Source: Lachnospiraceae bacterium (GTDB lineage: Bacteria > Bacillota > Clostridia > Lachnospirales > Lachnospiraceae). Taken from it: DNA of 64,000 nucleotides. The DNA lies in assembly GCA_024695665.1 (NCBI GenBank), contig JAILHT010000066.1, positions 1 through 64,000 on the forward strand, given 5' to 3'. The translations under genes were made by a program, and so were the position numbers. The notes beneath the pieces are model-generated. The model was not told the DNA's origin. It ran no database searches and saw only the letters and a program-made list of their open reading frames with translations. Shown here one piece after another: positions 25,678 through 36,653 of the stretch; position 1 is the stretch's first letter, and each line of letters begins with the position of its first letter.

Positions 25678-26829
25678 ATGACAAAAATTGACATAATTTC
25701 AGGTTTCCTTGGAGCAGGAAAAACTACTCTTATAAAGAAACTCCTCGAGGAAGTATTCAAAGGAGAGAAGGTAGCCCTGATTGAGAATGAATACGGTGAA
25801 GTAGGAATCGACGGAGGATTTTTGAAGGATTCCGGAATACAGATTACAGAGATGAATTCAGGATGTATCTGTTGTACACTTGTCGGAGATTTTGCAAAGA
25901 GTCTTCATGAGGTACTTGATACATATCATCCGGACAGAATCATTATTGAGCCGTCAGGAGTAGGAAAACTTTCTGATGTTATGAAGTCGGTGCTCGATTT
26001 TGAGAGAGAAGCTGATGTTAAGCTTAACGGACTTGTAGCAGTTGTCAATGCGAAGAAGGCAGCTAAGCAGATGAAAGCTTTCGGTGAGTTTTTTAACAAC
26101 CAGATTGCCTATGCCACAACAATTGTCTTGAGCCGTACAACAGATGCTTCGGATGCGCTTCTAGAAGCAACGGTTAAGCAGATGCAGGAACTCAATTCAA
26201 AGGCAGCTATCATCACAACTCCATGGGAAGATATTTCCGGTGAGGCTATAGTAAAGGTAATCGAAGGACAGGACAATCTTGAGATAAAGGTACTTGCAGA
26301 AGCTGAGGCAGACAAGGATGCTGCTGAGCATGAGCATCATCACCATGACCACGATCATGAGGACCATGAACATCATCACCATGACCACGATCATGAGGAG
26401 CATGAACATCACCATCATGACCACGATCATGAGGAGCATGAACATCACCATGACCACGATCATGAGGAGCATGAACATCACCATCATGACCACGATCATG
26501 AGGACCATGAGCATCATGACCACGACCATGAGCATCATCACCATCATGCTGATGATATTTTTGACAGCTGGGGAAAAGAGACTCCGCATAAGTACACAAA
26601 GGAGAAGATTGAGGAAATCTTAAAGGCTCTAGCTGATGATGACGAGTACAGCAACGTGCTCAGAGCAAAAGGTATGGTAATGAATGCCAATGGCGGATGG
26701 ATCTATTTCGATATGGTTCCGGGAGAGTATGAAATCCGTGAAGGTGAGCCGGATTATACCGGAAGACTTTGCGTAATCGGAACAGGAATAGATGATGACA
26801 AGATGTCCAAACTTTTTGAATTGGTTTAA
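25678..26829 (+). CDS. CobW/G3E-family metal-chaperone GTPase with His-rich insert
   Basis: A 383-aa GTPase of the CobW/YeiR/ZNG1 group, which loads zinc, cobalt or nickel into target proteins. The P-loop GFLGAGKTT is at residues 9-17, and the metal-binding CxCC motif (GCICC) is at 62-66. A histidine/aspartate/glutamate-rich insert at about 218-291 consists of six 11- or 12-residue repeats and should bind several metal ions. The CobW C-terminal domain follows (about 305-383). It heads a run that includes a second CobW-like protein. The metal is not determinable from sequence; no Zur site is obvious. Confidence 0.88.
   Translation: MTKIDIISGFLGAGKTTLIKKLLEEVFKGEKVALIENEYGEVGIDGGFLKDSGIQITEMNSGCICCTLVGDFAKSLHEVLDTYHPDRIIIEPSGVGKLSDVMKSVLDFEREADVKLNGLVAVVNAKKAAKQMKAFGEFFNNQIAYATTIVLSRTTDASDALLEATVKQMQELNSKAAIITTPWEDISGEAIVKVIEGQDNLEIKVLAEAEADKDAAEHEHHHHDHDHEDHEHHHHDHDHEEHEHHHHDHDHEEHEHHHDHDHEEHEHHHHDHDHEDHEHHDHDHEHHHHHADDIFDSWGKETPHKYTKEKIEEILKALADDDEYSNVLRAKGMVMNANGGWIYFDMVPGEYEIREGEPDYTGRLCVIGTGIDDDKMSKLFELV
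26329..26550 (+). repeat. In-frame 36-bp tandem repeat coding for the His-rich segment
   Basis: Units of 36 bp start at 26329, 26365, 26401 and 26470; one unit (26437-26469) is 33 bp and lacks one His codon; a degenerate last unit runs from 26506. The consensus peptide is HEHHHHDHDHEE. All changes keep the frame, as expected for a repeat that expands and contracts under selection for metal binding. Confidence 0.9.
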
Positions 26830-26925: not shown

Positions 26926-27867
26926 ATGGAAGAAATACCTGTATATTTATTTACGGGCTTTATGGATAGCGGTAAGACATCTCTTATCAAACAGACGCTG
27001 ATTGAGGACGGTTTTGCATCAGAGGGCAAATCCCTTCTCATAGTCTGTGAAGATGGTGATGAGGAGTATGATGAGGCCGAGATGGCGAAAATCAACACCA
27101 AGATTCTCTATGTTGAAAAAGAGGAAGATTTTACCGATGAACTGCTGAAAAATATAAATCTCCAATATTTGCCGGATCAGGTTTTTATCGAATTTAACGG
27201 TACATGGGGAGCGGAGACTTTTGTCGACAGGAAGCTCCCGGAGGGGTGGATATTGGTGCAGAGTCTTTGTACTATCGATGCATCAACATTTGAGATGTAT
27301 ATGCAGAATATGAGAGCTATGATGTTGGATCAGTTCTTTGATGCGGATGTTGTTATTTTCAACAGATGCACACTTGATACTGCAAGGGCAAAATTCAGAG
27401 CAAATATAAAGCAGACTAACAGAAGAGCACAAATAGTATATGAGTTGACTGATGGATCCATTGATGAGAGGGAAGAGGAACTTCCGTTTGACATAAATGC
27501 TGATGTTATCGAACTTTCGGATGCAGATTATGCACTTTGGTTTATGGATTGTCAGGATAACCCTAAGAAATATGACAAAAAGAAAATTCACTTTCTTGCG
27601 CTTGTTTACAATCCGGACAAACTCGGAAAAGGGCTTATGGTTCCGGGAAGATTTGCGATGACGTGCTGCGTTGAGGATGTTCAGTTTATAGGATTTAAAT
27701 GTAAATATGCCAAAGAAAATGAAATTCCGCACAAATCATGGATAGATATAACAGCTGAGGTTCATGTGGAATTTGCAAAAGAGTACAGAGGAAAAGGCCC
27801 TGTTTTATATCCGATAGATATAAAGCCGGCAAGCAAACCTGAAGACGAACTTGTTTATTTTTCATAA
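26926..27867 (+). CDS. CobW-like GTPase fused to a YcgQ/DUF1980-like C-terminal domain
   Basis: A 313-aa protein. The N-terminal part is CobW-like with a P-loop (GFMDSGKTS, residues 10-18), but the CxCC metal motif is absent. The C-terminal part contains GRFAMTCCVEDVQFIGF (about 240-256), which resembles the conserved CC-x-x-D motif of DUF1980/TIGR03943 proteins such as YcgQ, partners of a permease linked to metal homeostasis. This is recalled similarity, not a search. It follows the His-rich GTPase by 96 bases; both probably act in metal allocation. The amidase gene starts 15 bases downstream. Confidence 0.7.
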   Translation: MEEIPVYLFTGFMDSGKTSLIKQTLIEDGFASEGKSLLIVCEDGDEEYDEAEMAKINTKILYVEKEEDFTDELLKNINLQYLPDQVFIEFNGTWGAETFVDRKLPEGWILVQSLCTIDASTFEMYMQNMRAMMLDQFFDADVVIFNRCTLDTARAKFRANIKQTNRRAQIVYELTDGSIDEREEELPFDINADVIELSDADYALWFMDCQDNPKKYDKKKIHFLALVYNPDKLGKGLMVPGRFAMTCCVEDVQFIGFKCKYAKENEIPHKSWIDITAEVHVEFAKEYRGKGPVLYPIDIKPASKPEDELVYFS

Positions 27868-27882
27868 AGGTGGATTGACGTA

Positions 27883-29592
27883 TTGAAATATTATCGTATA
27901 GATAAAAACGGAAACAAAACCGTGGTTGAAAAGAAAAAGAAAAGCACGGCTTACAAACTGCAAGCTGCTATAAAATGGATGGTTTGTTTTGCGGCATTGT
28001 TTTTGGTCATATGCGGAATCGGAGTACTTGATAAAAAAATAGACGGAATAAATCTCCTTTCAAATATCTCGGAGAAACTGGAAGAAATAACTGAAGGGGA
28101 AACAGAGGAGACTTCAACAGAAGAGGAAACTGAAGCCGCCGAGGAAGAAACGGAAGATTCCGGAGTTTTATTTACTGTTTGTGTTGACCCCGGACATGGT
28201 GGAATCGACAGAGGAAATCAAGATAACGGAAGAGATGAATGTGATGACAACTTTAATCTGGCTCTTAAACTTAAAGCAGAGCTTGAAGCATTAAATATAG
28301 GAGTTGTAATGACAAGGACCGAGGATGTAAAAGTCTTTCTCGAAGAGAGGGTGACGATAGCGAACAACTCGGGGGCTACATATTTTATATCTTTACACAG
28401 GAATTCCGGTGACGGTTACGGTGTTGAATCGTGGATAAACGGTTCAGGAACCTCGGAAGAAACGCAGACATACGGCCAGATGATTCATGATGCAATAATA
28501 GCAGTGGGAGCAACCAGAGATCGAACATTAAAGACCGGATCCGAGAGTGACTCCAACGGTGGGTATTATGTTTTGAGAAATACCAATATGCCGGCAGTAC
28601 TTATAGAACTTGGCTTTATGGATTACGAGGAGGATAATGTCCTCTTTGATCAAAACATGGACGCTTACGCGAAAGCTATAGCCGATGCTATTTATCAGTG
28701 CTATCAGATATATCATGGGGAGGATAGCGAAAGCGACAACTCCACTGAGGATGGCGCGGAGACAACTACAGAAGATGCAACTGAGGACACCGAAGAAACG
28801 GCAGCATCCGTTTCTTCGGAAGTTTCATATACGGGGATGACTTTGAACTATGAAGCCATCGAGGATATCAACTCACTTGACAGTGATATTTTAAACTGGT
28901 CGCAGGGTAACAAGTTGGATTCAAGTAATATCCCGACTGCCTGTAGCGATTACAATTCAAAATACGGGGGATATAATGCTGATTTTTTTGTGGACAGCGG
29001 GCAGGATAAAACCCTTTATCTGACTTTTGACGAGACTTATGAGTACGGATGTACTTCAGATATTTTGAGTACATTGAAAGAAAAGGGAGTCCAGTCCGTA
29101 TTTTTTGTAACAAAAACGTACGCAGAAGAAAATCCCGACATGGTCAGACAGATAATTGATGAAGGACATATTTTGGGGAATCTCTCCTCGACTTATCCGA
29201 CGAACGGGCTTCCATCGGAAACCTTGTCAGATCAACAAAATGAGATTATAGAGAATCATGAGTATATAAAAGAAAACTTTGGATATAATATGTATCTTTT
29301 CAGATTTCCGGAAGGCAAATTTTCTGAGCAGTCGTTGGCGCTTGCCAACAACTGCGGTTACAGGAGTGTATTCTGGAGCTTTTCATATCTGGATTATAAT
29401 GTAAACAGCCAACCGGATGAAAATGAATCATTGGAAAAACTGGTTTCCAAACTACATCCCGGAGCAATATATCTTCTACACGGACAGTCCCGTACCAACG
29501 CGGATATACTGGGCGATTTTATATCGCAGGCTAAGGCGGCCGGATATAGCTTTGCAAGCTATGCCGATATTGCCGCAAAAACGATTCAGTAA
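27883..29592 (+). CDS. N-acetylmuramoyl-L-alanine amidase fused to degenerate PdaA-like deacetylase domain
   Basis: A 569-aa exported, membrane-anchored protein: one N-terminal helix (about residues 28-50), a Glu/Thr linker, an Amidase_3 (CwlD/AmiC-like) domain at about 95-285, a second acidic linker, and a polysaccharide-deacetylase domain at about 375-569. Amidase zinc ligands are visible: His105 in DPGHGG, Glu in the RDECDDNFNL region, His in SLHRN and Glu in LIELGF. The deacetylase part resembles PdaA (GAIYLLH, FWSFSYLDYN), but the metal motif NHSxxHP reads NLSSTYP (Leu434, Tyr438) and the first motif is TFDET. It starts with TTG at 27883 after AAAGGTGG. Confidence 0.85.
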   Translation: MKYYRIDKNGNKTVVEKKKKSTAYKLQAAIKWMVCFAALFLVICGIGVLDKKIDGINLLSNISEKLEEITEGETEETSTEEETEAAEEETEDSGVLFTVCVDPGHGGIDRGNQDNGRDECDDNFNLALKLKAELEALNIGVVMTRTEDVKVFLEERVTIANNSGATYFISLHRNSGDGYGVESWINGSGTSEETQTYGQMIHDAIIAVGATRDRTLKTGSESDSNGGYYVLRNTNMPAVLIELGFMDYEEDNVLFDQNMDAYAKAIADAIYQCYQIYHGEDSESDNSTEDGAETTTEDATEDTEETAASVSSEVSYTGMTLNYEAIEDINSLDSDILNWSQGNKLDSSNIPTACSDYNSKYGGYNADFFVDSGQDKTLYLTFDETYEYGCTSDILSTLKEKGVQSVFFVTKTYAEENPDMVRQIIDEGHILGNLSSTYPTNGLPSETLSDQQNEIIENHEYIKENFGYNMYLFRFPEGKFSEQSLALANNCGYRSVFWSFSYLDYNVNSQPDENESLEKLVSKLHPGAIYLLHGQSRTNADILGDFISQAKAAGYSFASYADIAAKTIQ

Positions 29593-31907: not shown

Positions 31908-34900
31908 TTGCGAAAGCGGATTAGAGAACTCGCACGTGGAAGGATTGGTTACAGAAATTCGTCATTAGTTTTGTCAGAGGACAAAATCAATCTGGAAGTG
32001 CTTGAGGGTGGCACAGTTGCCGGTGAGTTTTCTTTTCACACAGATACGGATGACGTTGTCAGGGGGAATGTATATTCCTCCCTGTCACGTATGGAATGTT
32101 TGACACCTGTATTTGACGGAAGAAAGATTACTGTCCGGTATGAATTCAACAGTTCGGGATTAAATGAGGGTGATGTTCTCAGGGGAGATTTTTTCATAGT
32201 TTCCGATTGCGGGGAATATAACCTTTCTTTTGTTGTGTCCGTTTTGAACCCTTATGCAGACTCCTCGATGGGCAATATTAAAAGTCTTGATGATTTTGTA
32301 AGCCTTTATAAGGATTATCCTAACGAGGCTGAAAAAATCTTCTATTCAACGTATTTTCATCATATTATAACCAACAATTCTCTCTTCCAAAGAAACCTTT
32401 ACGAAGGCTTGAGAAACGGGAGCAGGAGTGTTTTTAATATCGAGGAATTTCTTGTTGAGTGTGGAGTAAAAAAGCGTATTGAACTTGGATGTGCCAAGAA
32501 TGAGTATGAATTTTTCTCAGTCACGGAAAACTGCAGTGATATTATAGAAATCACCAGAAATACATGGGGATTTGTCAATATTGATATCAAATCCGATTCA
32601 CCTTTTATAGAATTTTCAAAAAATCGAATAACCGATTCTGATTTCATAGGTATGACATGTTATATACCTATGGTTATTTGTGCTGATAAGCTTCATGCCG
32701 GAAAGAACTACGGAAAAATAGTTTTGTCTAACGGAATTTGGCAGAGAGAGATTTCCATATGTGCCACACAGAGTAACGGTTTGAATTTCGGCAAACATTC
32801 CGATTCCCATCGCAAAATGATATTTGTTGCTCTTGGAAGACTCTATATGGATTATAGACTGGGGCATATAGTGACCGGCAAATGGTCTGATAAATCCTTA
32901 GATCTGCTGGATGAACTTATAGTGTTGGACGATCAACCGTTCTATAAACTCATGAAGGCGCAGCTTTATCTTGCAAATGGGAGAAAACAGGATGCCGAGT
33001 GGATATTAAATGATTACAGACGTGCATGGGATGGCATAGAAGATGAGGTATATGGATATTATCTGTATGTCAATACTCTCTATAACAAAGAGGATTCTTA
33101 TGTAAACAGACTTATTGATAAGGTTAACGATATTTATATCAGAAACCGTGAGAGCGCACTTTTGTTCTTTTGTATACTGAATCTCAACTCAGAGTATGTA
33201 AAGGACAGACATGCGAGATATCTTGCCATATGTAATTTCGTAGAGAAATACGGGCATTCTTACACATTGGAGACGGAGGCATTAAATATTGTATTATCGG
33301 AGCCTTATTGCGCAGCATCACTCAACCTTTTTGTAAAAAGAATATTGCTCAGGGCGGATCGGTACGGATATCTCGACGAGAAAATATGCCAGAGAATTGT
33401 CCAACTTGCAGACAGAGAGAGCACATATGACCCATGTGTTAGACGTTTGCTTGAGTCATCCGCGAATATATTGGAGGATGAGGAGAGTATAACGGTGCTC
33501 TGCTCGTATCTGGTGAAAAATCATATCTATGATGAAGGTGCTTTTTATGTATATGAAAAAGGCATAAATTCGAATGTCAGAGTTGCCGGAATATATGAGG
33601 CTTATCTTGAGTCTTCCGACAGCAGGAAGGTAAGTCAGCTTCCGCATATAATTCTTATGTATTTTAAAGCACACAGTCATCTGCCTTATCAGCAGAAGGC
33701 ACAACTTTTGGTAAGTATAATAGCAAACAAAGAAAACGATCCTGCCACATATGAGGATTATCATGACCAGATAGTAAAATTTGCATATGAGCAGCTTGAA
33801 CTTTCAAGAGTTGACGATTCGCTTTCCGTTATCTACGGTGATGTTTTTGACAATTATATAAGAATTAGGGAGGTTGCATCACAGCTGGCCTCAGTTTTGT
33901 TTGTGCATAGGGTAACATGTTTTGATCCGAACACGGCATTTGTAGTTGTAAGAGAAAAAGGATTAAAAAATGAGACCAAGGTTCCCGTGAAAAATCATCT
34001 GACATACGTTAATATATATACAAATGACAGACAGATTTTTATGGAGGATATGAACGGCAACAGAAGCGCTGATAAAAATTTGTATCAGCTGGAAATGCTG
34101 ATGCCCGTACATAAATATTTAAAAACCTGTCTCAAGTATGCACCGGAGGAATTTGGTTATCTGCTCAGTTATTTCAAAAACAAGACATCAACCGCAGGAG
34201 CCAATCTCGATGACATTTATATGTTAGAAAGCCTTTTTGAAGACGGCAGAATTAGCGAAGAGTACAGAAATGAGCTGGCTATGAGATATTCACATTTTCT
34301 CGATGACAGAGGAAGAGCTGATATTGTTATCAGGGCGGTGAATTTTGATAAGCTAAGCGATGAGGACAGAATAAGATATATTGAGCTGCTTATTGACAAC
34401 AGCGTGTTGGACTCGGCATACAGATTCATCAGGGATTACAGCATATATACTATAGATGTAAAATATCTGTACAGAGTTGTCTCATATATTATAAGAGAAG
34501 TTGAGTTTGAGGATGACTATGAACTTTTAGATATTTGCATGATTTTATTTGAAAAAGGATGTCAAAAACCGGATCTTTTAATGTATCTTGAGAAACATGC
34601 GCAAGGGTCAAGCAAAAACCTTGAAAAGGTTTTGAGAGTAATACGAAAAGCAGATTTGCCAAGACTTAATCTGACAGAGAGATTGCTCATACAGTCGCTT
34701 TTTTCAACAGAGTATATAAGTATGTCACAGGAGATTTTCGAGGATTATGTGAAGGAGGGGGACCCTGAGGTAATAGATGCATATCTCACGTACCAGAATC
34801 ATATGTCATTCTCCAAGGACGTTGTGGTTTCTGAAAGGTTGTTCCTTTACACGAAGGAAAGAATCTTGATAGATGACAATGTGCCTGCAGTTATGAAGTT

Positions 34901-35435
34901 TTCTTTGGCAAAATATCTTGTCGAAAAAGGAGAATTAAAGCCGGAGGATGAAAAACTTGTCACAGGTTTTATAGCCGAATGGCTGGATCTTGGATTGTAT
35001 TTTAAGTTTTATAAAAAGCTTTCTCATGATATACAGGAAAAATTGCATATATTTGACCAGACGATCATAGAATACAGGACGACGCCGAGAAAACGTGTAA
35101 AAATATATTACAGGCTCAGCGAATCGGATGAGTATATCCGTGAAGATCTGCAGGAAATGTATTATGGTATATATGTAAAGCATACAACATTGTTTTTCGG
35201 AGAGAGCATGCAATACTACATCGTCGAGGAGAACGGCGATAGGGAGGACACTCTCGAAAGCGGAAAATTGGACAATCTCGGAATAAGTGGAAACAATGCT
35301 TCATCTAGATATGATTATCTAAATGAATTGTTGATGGCTTATTATCTGGGGGAGACGGATGCTCTTGATAAGATGATAAAAGAGTATGTGAAAAAGACGA
35401 AAGAAGTACAATCATTATTTGAACTGATGGGATGA
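31908..35435 (+). CDS. Large DUF5717 family protein (Ig-like and alpha-solenoid)
   Basis: A 1175-aa protein without signal peptide or membrane helix. Residues about 1-120 look like a beta-sandwich (SLVLSEDKINLEVLEGG to NLSFVVSV), residues about 190-310 like a second one, and the centre (about 310-1080) is almost wholly helical with TPR-like or solenoid texture. A beta-rich segment lies near the C-terminus. I recognise it as DUF5717, a Lachnospiraceae-type family of unknown function. The start is a TTG at 31908, supported by the family's usual MRKRI-x-x-L-A-x-G N-terminus; AGAGG lies 11 bases upstream. It is followed after six bases by its usual DUF5716 partner. Confidence 0.75.
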   Translation: MRKRIRELARGRIGYRNSSLVLSEDKINLEVLEGGTVAGEFSFHTDTDDVVRGNVYSSLSRMECLTPVFDGRKITVRYEFNSSGLNEGDVLRGDFFIVSDCGEYNLSFVVSVLNPYADSSMGNIKSLDDFVSLYKDYPNEAEKIFYSTYFHHIITNNSLFQRNLYEGLRNGSRSVFNIEEFLVECGVKKRIELGCAKNEYEFFSVTENCSDIIEITRNTWGFVNIDIKSDSPFIEFSKNRITDSDFIGMTCYIPMVICADKLHAGKNYGKIVLSNGIWQREISICATQSNGLNFGKHSDSHRKMIFVALGRLYMDYRLGHIVTGKWSDKSLDLLDELIVLDDQPFYKLMKAQLYLANGRKQDAEWILNDYRRAWDGIEDEVYGYYLYVNTLYNKEDSYVNRLIDKVNDIYIRNRESALLFFCILNLNSEYVKDRHARYLAICNFVEKYGHSYTLETEALNIVLSEPYCAASLNLFVKRILLRADRYGYLDEKICQRIVQLADRESTYDPCVRRLLESSANILEDEESITVLCSYLVKNHIYDEGAFYVYEKGINSNVRVAGIYEAYLESSDSRKVSQLPHIILMYFKAHSHLPYQQKAQLLVSIIANKENDPATYEDYHDQIVKFAYEQLELSRVDDSLSVIYGDVFDNYIRIREVASQLASVLFVHRVTCFDPNTAFVVVREKGLKNETKVPVKNHLTYVNIYTNDRQIFMEDMNGNRSADKNLYQLEMLMPVHKYLKTCLKYAPEEFGYLLSYFKNKTSTAGANLDDIYMLESLFEDGRISEEYRNELAMRYSHFLDDRGRADIVIRAVNFDKLSDEDRIRYIELLIDNSVLDSAYRFIRDYSIYTIDVKYLYRVVSYIIREVEFEDDYELLDICMILFEKGCQKPDLLMYLEKHAQGSSKNLEKVLRVIRKADLPRLNLTERLLIQSLFSTEYISMSQEIFEDYVKEGDPEVIDAYLTYQNHMSFSKDVVVSERLFLYTKERILIDDNVPAVMKFSLAKYLVEKGELKPEDEKLVTGFIAEWLDLGLYFKFYKKLSHDIQEKLHIFDQTIIEYRTTPRKRVKIYYRLSESDEYIREDLQEMYYGIYVKHTTLFFGESMQYYIVEENGDREDTLESGKLDNLGISGNNASSRYDYLNELLMAYYLGETDALDKMIKEYVKKTKEVQSLFELMG

Positions 35436-35441
35436 TGGCAT

Positions 35442-36653
35442 ATGGATTACAGTTGTATCGGTATAGACTTTGAAGGGAATATGGCCCTCGTGTCTTATGT
35501 GAATAAAAATGATTATGAACCGACCACGGTCAGCACTGTTGTTGGCGGTGACGATTATCAGATACCGGTCTGCGTTGTCAAGAAAAAAGGTATAGGGCAG
35601 TGGCTGTATGGAAAGGATGCCGTCTCATATGCCAAAGCCAACAAAATAAAATGTGAGAGCAATCTCTTGGAGAGAGCTGAAAATCAGGAAACAGTTATAA
35701 TAGAAGGGACGGAGTATGCTCTTCAGGATTTGTTTTTCTTCTTTTTAAAGAAACTTATGGCACTTCCTTCAAAAATGGGAGCGGTAGGAAACTTTGACCG
35801 CATTGCCATAACAATAGAAAATGTGACTCTTAAAAATATGCAGTTGTTTTGGATCTGTATGGAAAAACTAAAGTTTCCTTTAAACAATCTTTCGGTTATG
35901 GACCACAGGGAGAGTTTTTGCCATTATGTTATGCATCAGGAAGAGGATCTGAAAAGACATCTCGCAGCAATGTTTGAGTTTTGCGGAGACAAACTTACAC
36001 TAAGACTTTTGACAAAGAACATTAAACAAAAACCTGTTACCGTCTCTGTCATGGAGGAATCCTTGATGTATGACAATATGGATAAAGACAGCTTTTTGTT
36101 GGGAATAGCAAAGGAGAATTTTACCGGGAAAATGATATCTTCGGTATATCTTACCGGTGATGGTTTTGACGGTGACTGGATGAAACAGTCCTTAAAATAT
36201 CTTTGCTCCGGAAGAAGAGTTTTTTTGGGGAAAAATCTTTACAGTAAGGGCTGCTGTTATGCTGCTGATCTGAATAATGATTATGTTTACCTCGGAGAGA
36301 ATGAACTCAAAAATAATGTGAGTCTGAAAGTGACTGAACATGGTTTATACAAATTCATTCCGCTTGCAGAAGCCGGAAAAAACTGGTATGATCAGCAATT
36401 TGATTATGATATCTATGTAAAAGGTGAACCGGAGATAGACCTTTGGGTTCAGGAGACAAATGGAAATAAACCAAAGATCTTAACATTTGTACTTAAGGAC
36501 TGGCCTAAGAGAAAATGTGATATCACGAGAGTGAGAGTTTCATCAAAGCCATTGTCACCGAAGGAGATAAAAATTTCAGTAAAAGATCTTGGATTTGGAG
36601 AGATTTCCCAATCCACAAATGCATTTAGCGAATATACGTTAAAATTGGAGTAG
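35442..36653 (+). CDS. DUF5716 family, divergent Hsp70/actin-fold protein
   Basis: A 403-aa protein recognised as DUF5716. It looks like a diverged Hsp70/actin-type nucleotide-binding fold: GIDFEGNMALVSYV at the start resembles phosphate loop 1, IPVCVVKKKGIGQWLYGKDAV resembles the Hsp70 segment that follows, FDRIAITIENVTLKNMQ resembles the VPA-x-F region, and SVYLTGDGFDGDW resembles the adenosine loop. The second phosphate loop (DLGGGT in DnaK) reads EFCGDKLT and is not conserved, so ATP hydrolysis is doubtful. The last 90 residues are a separate beta-rich tail. It sits between the DUF5717 giant and a TPR protein, six and three bases apart. Confidence 0.65.
   Translation: MDYSCIGIDFEGNMALVSYVNKNDYEPTTVSTVVGGDDYQIPVCVVKKKGIGQWLYGKDAVSYAKANKIKCESNLLERAENQETVIIEGTEYALQDLFFFFLKKLMALPSKMGAVGNFDRIAITIENVTLKNMQLFWICMEKLKFPLNNLSVMDHRESFCHYVMHQEEDLKRHLAAMFEFCGDKLTLRLLTKNIKQKPVTVSVMEESLMYDNMDKDSFLLGIAKENFTGKMISSVYLTGDGFDGDWMKQSLKYLCSGRRVFLGKNLYSKGCCYAADLNNDYVYLGENELKNNVSLKVTEHGLYKFIPLAEAGKNWYDQQFDYDIYVKGEPEIDLWVQETNGNKPKILTFVLKDWPKRKCDITRVRVSSKPLSPKEIKISVKDLGFGEISQSTNAFSEYTLKLE

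Follow-up and report, generated by a model that had tools for sequence, protein, structure and literature searches.

The window, the whole 64,000-nucleotide stretch of DNA analysed here from a Lachnospiraceae genome (G000), carries an open, complete reading frame that joins two wall-enzyme domain types. The encoded protein has, in order, a predicted N-terminal membrane helix, an Amidase_3 domain, acidic linkers rich in Thr and Glu, and a PdaA-like CE4 (NodB) domain. Its TTG start is preceded by AAAGGTGG. A gap of 15 bp separates the upstream CobW/DUF1980_C gene from the fusion start, and 17 bp separate the fusion end from the oxidoreductase gene downstream. The features of the locus are as follows:

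25678–26829, + strand: CobW protein with a long His/Asp/Glu repeat, a conserved neighbour
26926–27867, + strand: CobW GTPase domain plus DUF1980_C, conserved upstream neighbour
27883–29592, + strand: the fusion gene, 569 amino acids
27946–28032, + strand: predicted membrane-anchor helix, residues 22–50, from a helix in a weak AF2 model and a hydrophobic run in the translation
28177–28692, + strand: Amidase_3 domain, residues 99–270 (Pfam 3.5e-42), with H105, E119, H172 and E242 kept
28702–28833, + strand: acidic, poorly conserved linker, residues 274–317, with 47% identity between the two species of the genus
28876–29571, + strand: PdaA-like CE4/NodB domain, residues 332–563 (match to PDB 1w1a, 4.9e-42; Pfam core 374–495)
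29023–29037, + strand: motif 1, TFDET, residues 381–385, with base Asp D383 kept and the change G385T
29179–29199, + strand: motif 2, NLSSTYP, residues 433–439, with both zinc histidines lost (L434, Y438)
29479–29481, + strand: H533, kept, equivalent of the PdaA general acid H222 (role of H222 from the available part of PMC12444981)
29610–30497, + strand: oxidoreductase subunit with a DHODB-type Fe-S domain, conserved downstream neighbour

We collected further fusions by protein searches of the genus (2 genomes) and of the family (299 genomes, and 397 that overlapped the first set), together with one scan of named genome contigs and with region fetches. The best few candidates per genome were scored in the family searches, giving at least 18 distinct fusions from Lachnospiraceae and relatives; 13 keep both zinc histidines of the CE4 domain and 5 do not. 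The five inactivated fusions are those of the window, of a sister species in the same genus (G001), and of a clade of three genera (G182, G159 and G099). The gene order cobW, cobW-DUF1980_C, fusion and two oxidoreductase genes was found in all six loci outside the genus with enough flank (L041–L045, L047). A further locus, L046 in G144, begins at a contig end, and both downstream oxidoreductase genes are present there. All seven of these orthologues with shared neighbours read NHS(V/L)THP at motif 2. In seven other fusion loci (L140–L146), no window neighbour from 13803–42746 was matched except the fusion itself.

Some features of the neighbourhood were recorded in their own right. At 26326–26546, in the upstream CobW gene, a 36-bp unit is repeated about six times and encodes segments rich in His, Asp and Glu. 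This run is probably metal-binding, and the two CobW genes look like a metal-handling pair. The pair adjoins the fusion in G001 and in every one of the six syntenic loci whose flank is long enough. A scan of the + strand upstream of the cobW genes for a Zur box consensus gave best scores of 9/15 in the window and 9–10 in six orthologues, which are background-like; L042 scored 12, a level reached at two places in the whole window. Two large genes of the function-unknown families DUF5717 and DUF5716 follow the fusion locus (31908–36653). A phage origin was considered by scanning the viral_contigs set with the CE4 part, and none of the 59 stretches that matched the pattern encoded a relative.

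The amidase half matches Amidase_3 (PF01520) and retains H105, E119, H172 and E242, which we take to be the catalytic and zinc residues of that family. All four are kept in each of the 16 fusions that were aligned out of the 18. The initial annotation had placed an amidase and a PdaA-like domain on one polypeptide, and the Pfam and PDB matches agree. Its label of 'CwlD-type' for the amidase was too specific. The spore cortex amidase CwlD belongs to the same Amidase_3 family, but the window amidase scored 84.2 bits against the CwlD model (TIGR02883; cut-off 221.55), and the separate CwlD genes of relatives scored 205–215 bits, likewise under the cut-off. A stand-alone CwlD was present in 13 of the 16 fusion genomes tested and was not found in G000, G001 or G306. 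We concluded from these sequence comparisons that the fusion is not a CwlD orthologue, because most relatives carry a separate CwlD beside it.

The second domain was matched by Pfam Polysacc_deac_1 at residues 374–495 (1.2e-25), and its nearest solved structure is B. subtilis PdaA (PDB 1w1a, 1w17 and 1ny1). Alignment to PdaA set the window motifs TFDET, NLSSTYP, RFPEG, FWSFSYLDY and YLLH against TFDNG, NHSFHHP, RPPRG, FWSVAFVDW and YLLH, in agreement with the changes first reported for motifs 1 and 2. The window domain thus lacks both zinc histidines, but its base Asp, the Arg of motif 3, the Asp of motif 4 and the general-acid His remain; the retained residues include T381, D383, R474, W498, D504 and H533. 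The reading of motif 1 as TFDET was correct, but PdaA's TFDNG was not the proper yardstick: the subfamily standard is TFDEG, so that E384 is ancestral and only G385T is specific to the genus.

Family models drew the same distinctions. PdaA keeps both zinc histidines, reads TFDNG, stands alone and acts in sporulation, whereas the window domain scored 192.1 bits on the PdaA model (TIGR02884; cut-off 298) and has L434 and Y438 in place of the histidine pair, with H533 at the position of H222. The score was 74.6 bits on TIGR02873 (cut-off 391.5), the YlxY model, which we take to be that of SwsB, and the change of base Asp to Asn that marks SwsB is absent, D383 being kept. A NodB domain without metal ligands counts as a CE4 pseudoenzyme, and the window domain has this form on its sequence. 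Two AF2 models (nine rows each) had mean pLDDT values of 59.6 and 56.4, too poor for the pocket to be read; a fold search with the second, itself a weak model, returned PdaA first (1ny1, 1.1e-12, rmsd 8.6).

The syntenic gene of the sister species reads NYSTSYP and TFDAT, with Tyr at both zinc-histidine positions and Ala in place of E384. Because this second species is also altered, a sequencing accident was ruled out; a pseudogene or an assembly error was likewise rejected on the strength of two MAGs, conserved synteny and equal constraint on both domains. The two species differ at position 434 (L or Y) and at the residue that follows the base Asp (E or A), which suggests that the metal positions can drift freely.

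We considered whether the domain could still be a deacetylase, with Asp, Glu, Tyr or Cys holding a metal in another geometry or with hydrolysis proceeding without metal. The retention of D383, R474, D504 and H533 agrees with such an enzyme, as does that of E384 in the window protein and of E446, E477 and C354 in both species (C354 occurs in 8 of the 36 other rows, E477 in 5). But E384 is replaced in the sister species, the lost-ligand positions vary, and removal of metal stops deacetylation by PdaA and by engineered SwsB, according to the accessible text of PMC12444981. Nor does the CE4 alignment contain any gained His common to both species. A rebuilt zinc site was set aside on this last ground, although C354 and seven acidic positions that are common to both species and uncommon elsewhere leave room for one in the sequence. 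Continued deacetylation is in our judgement highly improbable, and the window CE4 domain is very probably deacetylase-dead.

Loss of the zinc site might mean that the CE4 domain is debris, decaying slowly after the loss of sporulation and persisting through its joining to the amidase. Comparison of the two species gave pN values of 0.149 for CE4 and 0.151 for the amidase, with linkers reaching 0.31 and synonymous sites saturated (pS 0.75 and 0.80, respectively). On a fusion tree with lengths fitted per domain, the genus stem branch was 0.335 for CE4 versus 0.434 for the amidase, so the CE4 stem was no longer; the branches after the species split were slightly longer in CE4 (0.121 and 0.186, versus 0.090 and 0.178), as decay would predict. 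Only 4 of the 31 columns strictly invariant in 36 other rows changed in both species, namely G385T, H434L/Y, H438Y and A501S. All four lie within motif windows (hypergeometric p = 0.023, computed post hoc on windows set after the changed columns had been seen, and with relatedness ignored). Counted over 31 near-invariant columns, with L124 and L139 also left out, the window protein keeps 27 and G001 keeps 26. The substitution counts indicate that, between the two species, selection acts on CE4 about as strongly as on the amidase. Equal pN, the stem branches and the confinement of changes to motif windows argue against neutral decay.

We then placed the loss of the zinc site on a tree of PdaA and 65 CE4 rows, built after masking nine columns of the catalytic site. 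The rows were a non-random sample made up of best-scoring hits and chosen regions (20 fetched, with long open frames preferred). Five rows were dropped before the counts: L006 and L009, of a different CE4 type; L040, the same as L002; L046, the same as L011; and the PdaA reference. Both zinc histidines are present in 58 of the 65 rows (13 of 18 fusions and 45 of 47 others). The rows without the pair fall in four places: the window genus, the clade of G182, G159 and G099 (support 100), L134, and the second L128 protein. Within this sample, the deacetylase site disappeared from fusions on two or more occasions, with the domain retained. The initial annotation had proposed conserved His loss in orthologues as a sign of a non-hydrolytic role; such loss holds within the genus (2 of 2 species) and fails outside it, where the seven syntenic orthologues keep both histidines.

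The general acid sets the window genus apart. All 58 rows with the histidine pair have H533, as do both species of the window genus, and it is lost in the other five of five rows without the pair. The alignment thus indicates that the window genus is the only place in the sample without the zinc site yet with the general acid. D383, R474 and T381 are no guide to choosing between the hypotheses, because the other inactivated fusions keep them as well. Tyr at 438 recurs in the window genus, L121 and the second L128 protein (L128b). Ser at 501 recurs in the window genus, L120, L123 and L128b, compared with one of 58 rows with both histidines.

Other rows showed changes of their own. L134 and the second L128 protein are Lachnospiraceae CE4 proteins without an amidase that were separately inactivated, the latter adjoining an intact copy on one 3.3-kb stretch. 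At CE4 column 477 (29311–29313), the variable position of motif 3, Asn recurs outside the genus in four of five inactivated rows, and no row among the 58 with the pair has it. L124 and L139 keep both histidines but depart from the motifs elsewhere in unusual ways, among them the loss of the base Asp. Motif 2 of L123 was too divergent to align consistently (Y/D or R/M), with no His either way.

The absence of sporulation genes near ftsZ, pointed out in the initial annotation, extends more widely: Spo0A, SpoIVA, CwlD and stand-alone PdaA were not found anywhere in G000 (91% complete) or in G001 (81% complete). Single absences are soft at such completeness, but neither genome yielded any of the four markers. 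Spo0A and SpoIVA were counted in 16 of the 18 fusion genomes, with G371 and G373 left out. Spo0A was above cut-off in 13 of the 16, including G178 and G148, which barely passed, by way of the C-terminal half (about 202 versus 200 bits); the G302 hit was a 174-bit fragment where a contig ends, and G000 and G001 had only receiver-domain hits. SpoIVA was likewise present in 13 and was not found in G000, G001 or G241. A stand-alone PdaA-type gene occurred in 8 of 13 distinct genomes (G300 counted as G001), scoring 283–290 bits, under the cut-off of 298; none was found in G000, G001, G083, G178 or G241. In G083 and G178 (L012, L014), which have SpoIVA and CwlD, the intact fusion is the sole match above 150 bits to the PdaA model and may be their PdaA.

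These gene contents bear on decay after the loss of sporulation. The missing genes in both genomes of the window genus suit that account, but G182, G159 and G099 carry Spo0A and SpoIVA and also have an inactivated fusion. Together with the constraint on the domain, this leaves debris an improbable explanation. The same three genera rule out loss of sporulation as a general cause, and with it the earlier hint that a lack of sporulation explains the change; G241 (89% complete), for comparison, has an intact fusion and Spo0A, with SpoIVA not found.

A stand-alone CE4 paralogue of the fusion type (at least 221 bits, among the 18 genomes) was present in G000, G099, G159, G182 and, in two copies, G241. 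With the one query used, neither G001 (81% complete) nor any of the other 12 intact-fusion genomes gave such a hit. The paralogues of G000, G099, G159 and G182 (L003, L019, L022, L026) keep both histidines. The paralogue thus accompanies four of five inactivated fusions versus one of 13 intact ones (one-sided Fisher 0.008, with relatedness ignored), an association that was noticed post hoc and represents two evolutionary events. This pattern suggests that a stand-alone deacetylase relieved the fused CE4 domain of that task.

What the freed domain might do can be set against the known chemistry. In B. subtilis, CwlD strips the peptide and PdaA then deacetylates and cyclises, as given in the available text of PMC10116595; intact orthologues of the fusion would be a one-protein version of this sequence. 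The sections of PMC12444981 that were available describe SwsB as a cyclase only, which needs no transition metal (a role of Ca not being fully excluded), and report that cyclisation by metal-stripped PdaA persists at a slower rate and that neither enzyme cyclises without its histidine (H222 in PdaA, H282 in SwsB). In the same sections, muramic lactam is called unique to spores, and PdaA and SwsB are named as the sole reported enzymes forming an amide directly from carboxylate and amine, with the mechanism open. Like SwsB, the window domain is a PdaA relative with the general-acid His and, to judge from its residues, without deacetylation. However, in SwsB the zinc motif remains and the Asp, Arg and Thr near the base are gone, the window domain is the reverse, and the N-terminal domains of the two proteins differ.

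The main rival to our preferred reading is therefore drawn from SwsB: the CE4 domain would be a metal-free muramic-delta-lactam cyclase, with the amidase stripping the peptide, the paralogue deacetylating MurNAc and the CE4 domain closing the lactam. Retention of H533 in both species of the genus, set against its loss in the other five inactivated rows, favours a remaining chemical role, and an intact stand-alone paralogue is at hand in G000. A role in lactam formation only, one of the three options first raised for the domain beside glycan binding and guidance of the amidase, is better founded than could be known from one sequence, because SwsB cyclises without a transition metal and H533 is kept. 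But the paralogue was not found in G001, the lactam is described as a spore product and the four spore genes sought are missing from both genomes, and the literature consulted, in the parts available, reports no member of the TFDEG subfamily that cyclises. In addition, the support from SwsB and PdaA concerns removal of metal, not removal of two histidine side chains (PMC12444981, same sections). We consider cyclisation unlikely, and the fuller proposal, that a gut Lachnospiraceae genus without the sporulation genes tested uses a metal-free lactam cyclase, by a route opposite to that of SwsB, in its vegetative wall, quite unlikely.

CE4 proteins described as inactive offer partial parallels. 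Ba0150 (4M1B) and EcCDA (2VYO) have NodB domains described as inert or probably inactive in the available part of PMC10967932, and BA3943 is a CE4 pseudoenzyme by its PDB title; unlike in the window fusion, joining to an amidase is not among the features described for them there. Among titles and the starts of abstracts, our literature search recognised no paper on an Amidase_3-CE4 fusion or on lactam outside spores. E. coli SddA deacetylates the denuded glycan strands that amidases produce, and genetics ties it to amidase activation, which it modulates (PMC12440217, from the text available). It differs from the window protein in being a separate protein of family PF04748 that needs its metal-binding residues for activity. 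By this example from another family, the CE4 domain could be a structural or protein-protein module, for instance in amidase regulation or in recruitment of a division partner, with no binding of glycan. The residues that are kept are nonetheless those of the CE4 motifs, as the near-invariant columns show, and we give such a module very little probability.

Our preferred reading, held tentatively and at a little less than an even chance, is that the protein is a membrane-anchored peptidoglycan amidase whose deacetylase-dead CE4 domain serves as a module that binds denuded glycan. The amidase would strip stem peptides from MurNAc, and the CE4 domain, its deacetylase chemistry lost, would still bind the denuded glycan in its old groove (D383, R474, W498, D504, H533). 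It would thereby tether the enzyme to its product, or to places where denuded glycan abounds, making the stripping processive or localised; the stand-alone intact paralogue (G000:C31) would account for any such deacetylation in the cell. Retention of H533 speaks somewhat against this reading, because a module that only binds could do without that histidine; so do the CE4 branches, slightly longer than those of the amidase after the species split, and C354 and the acidic residues common to both species and uncommon elsewhere. Binding only is favoured by the absence of the spore genes, of any TFDEG-subfamily protein shown to cyclise in the literature as far as available, and of the paralogue from the G001 assembly. 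We thus rank binding of denuded glycan first and cyclisation second.

Amidase-deacetylase fusions exist in Lachnospiraceae, and the window genus presents a natural variant of them in which the zinc site has been removed and the general acid kept. Because syntenic orthologues with an intact site stand beside this variant, the role of the zinc site is open to direct comparison. If the cyclase reading were true, the genus would provide a second route to the chemistry of SwsB, the formation of an amide from a free acid and an amine without energy input.
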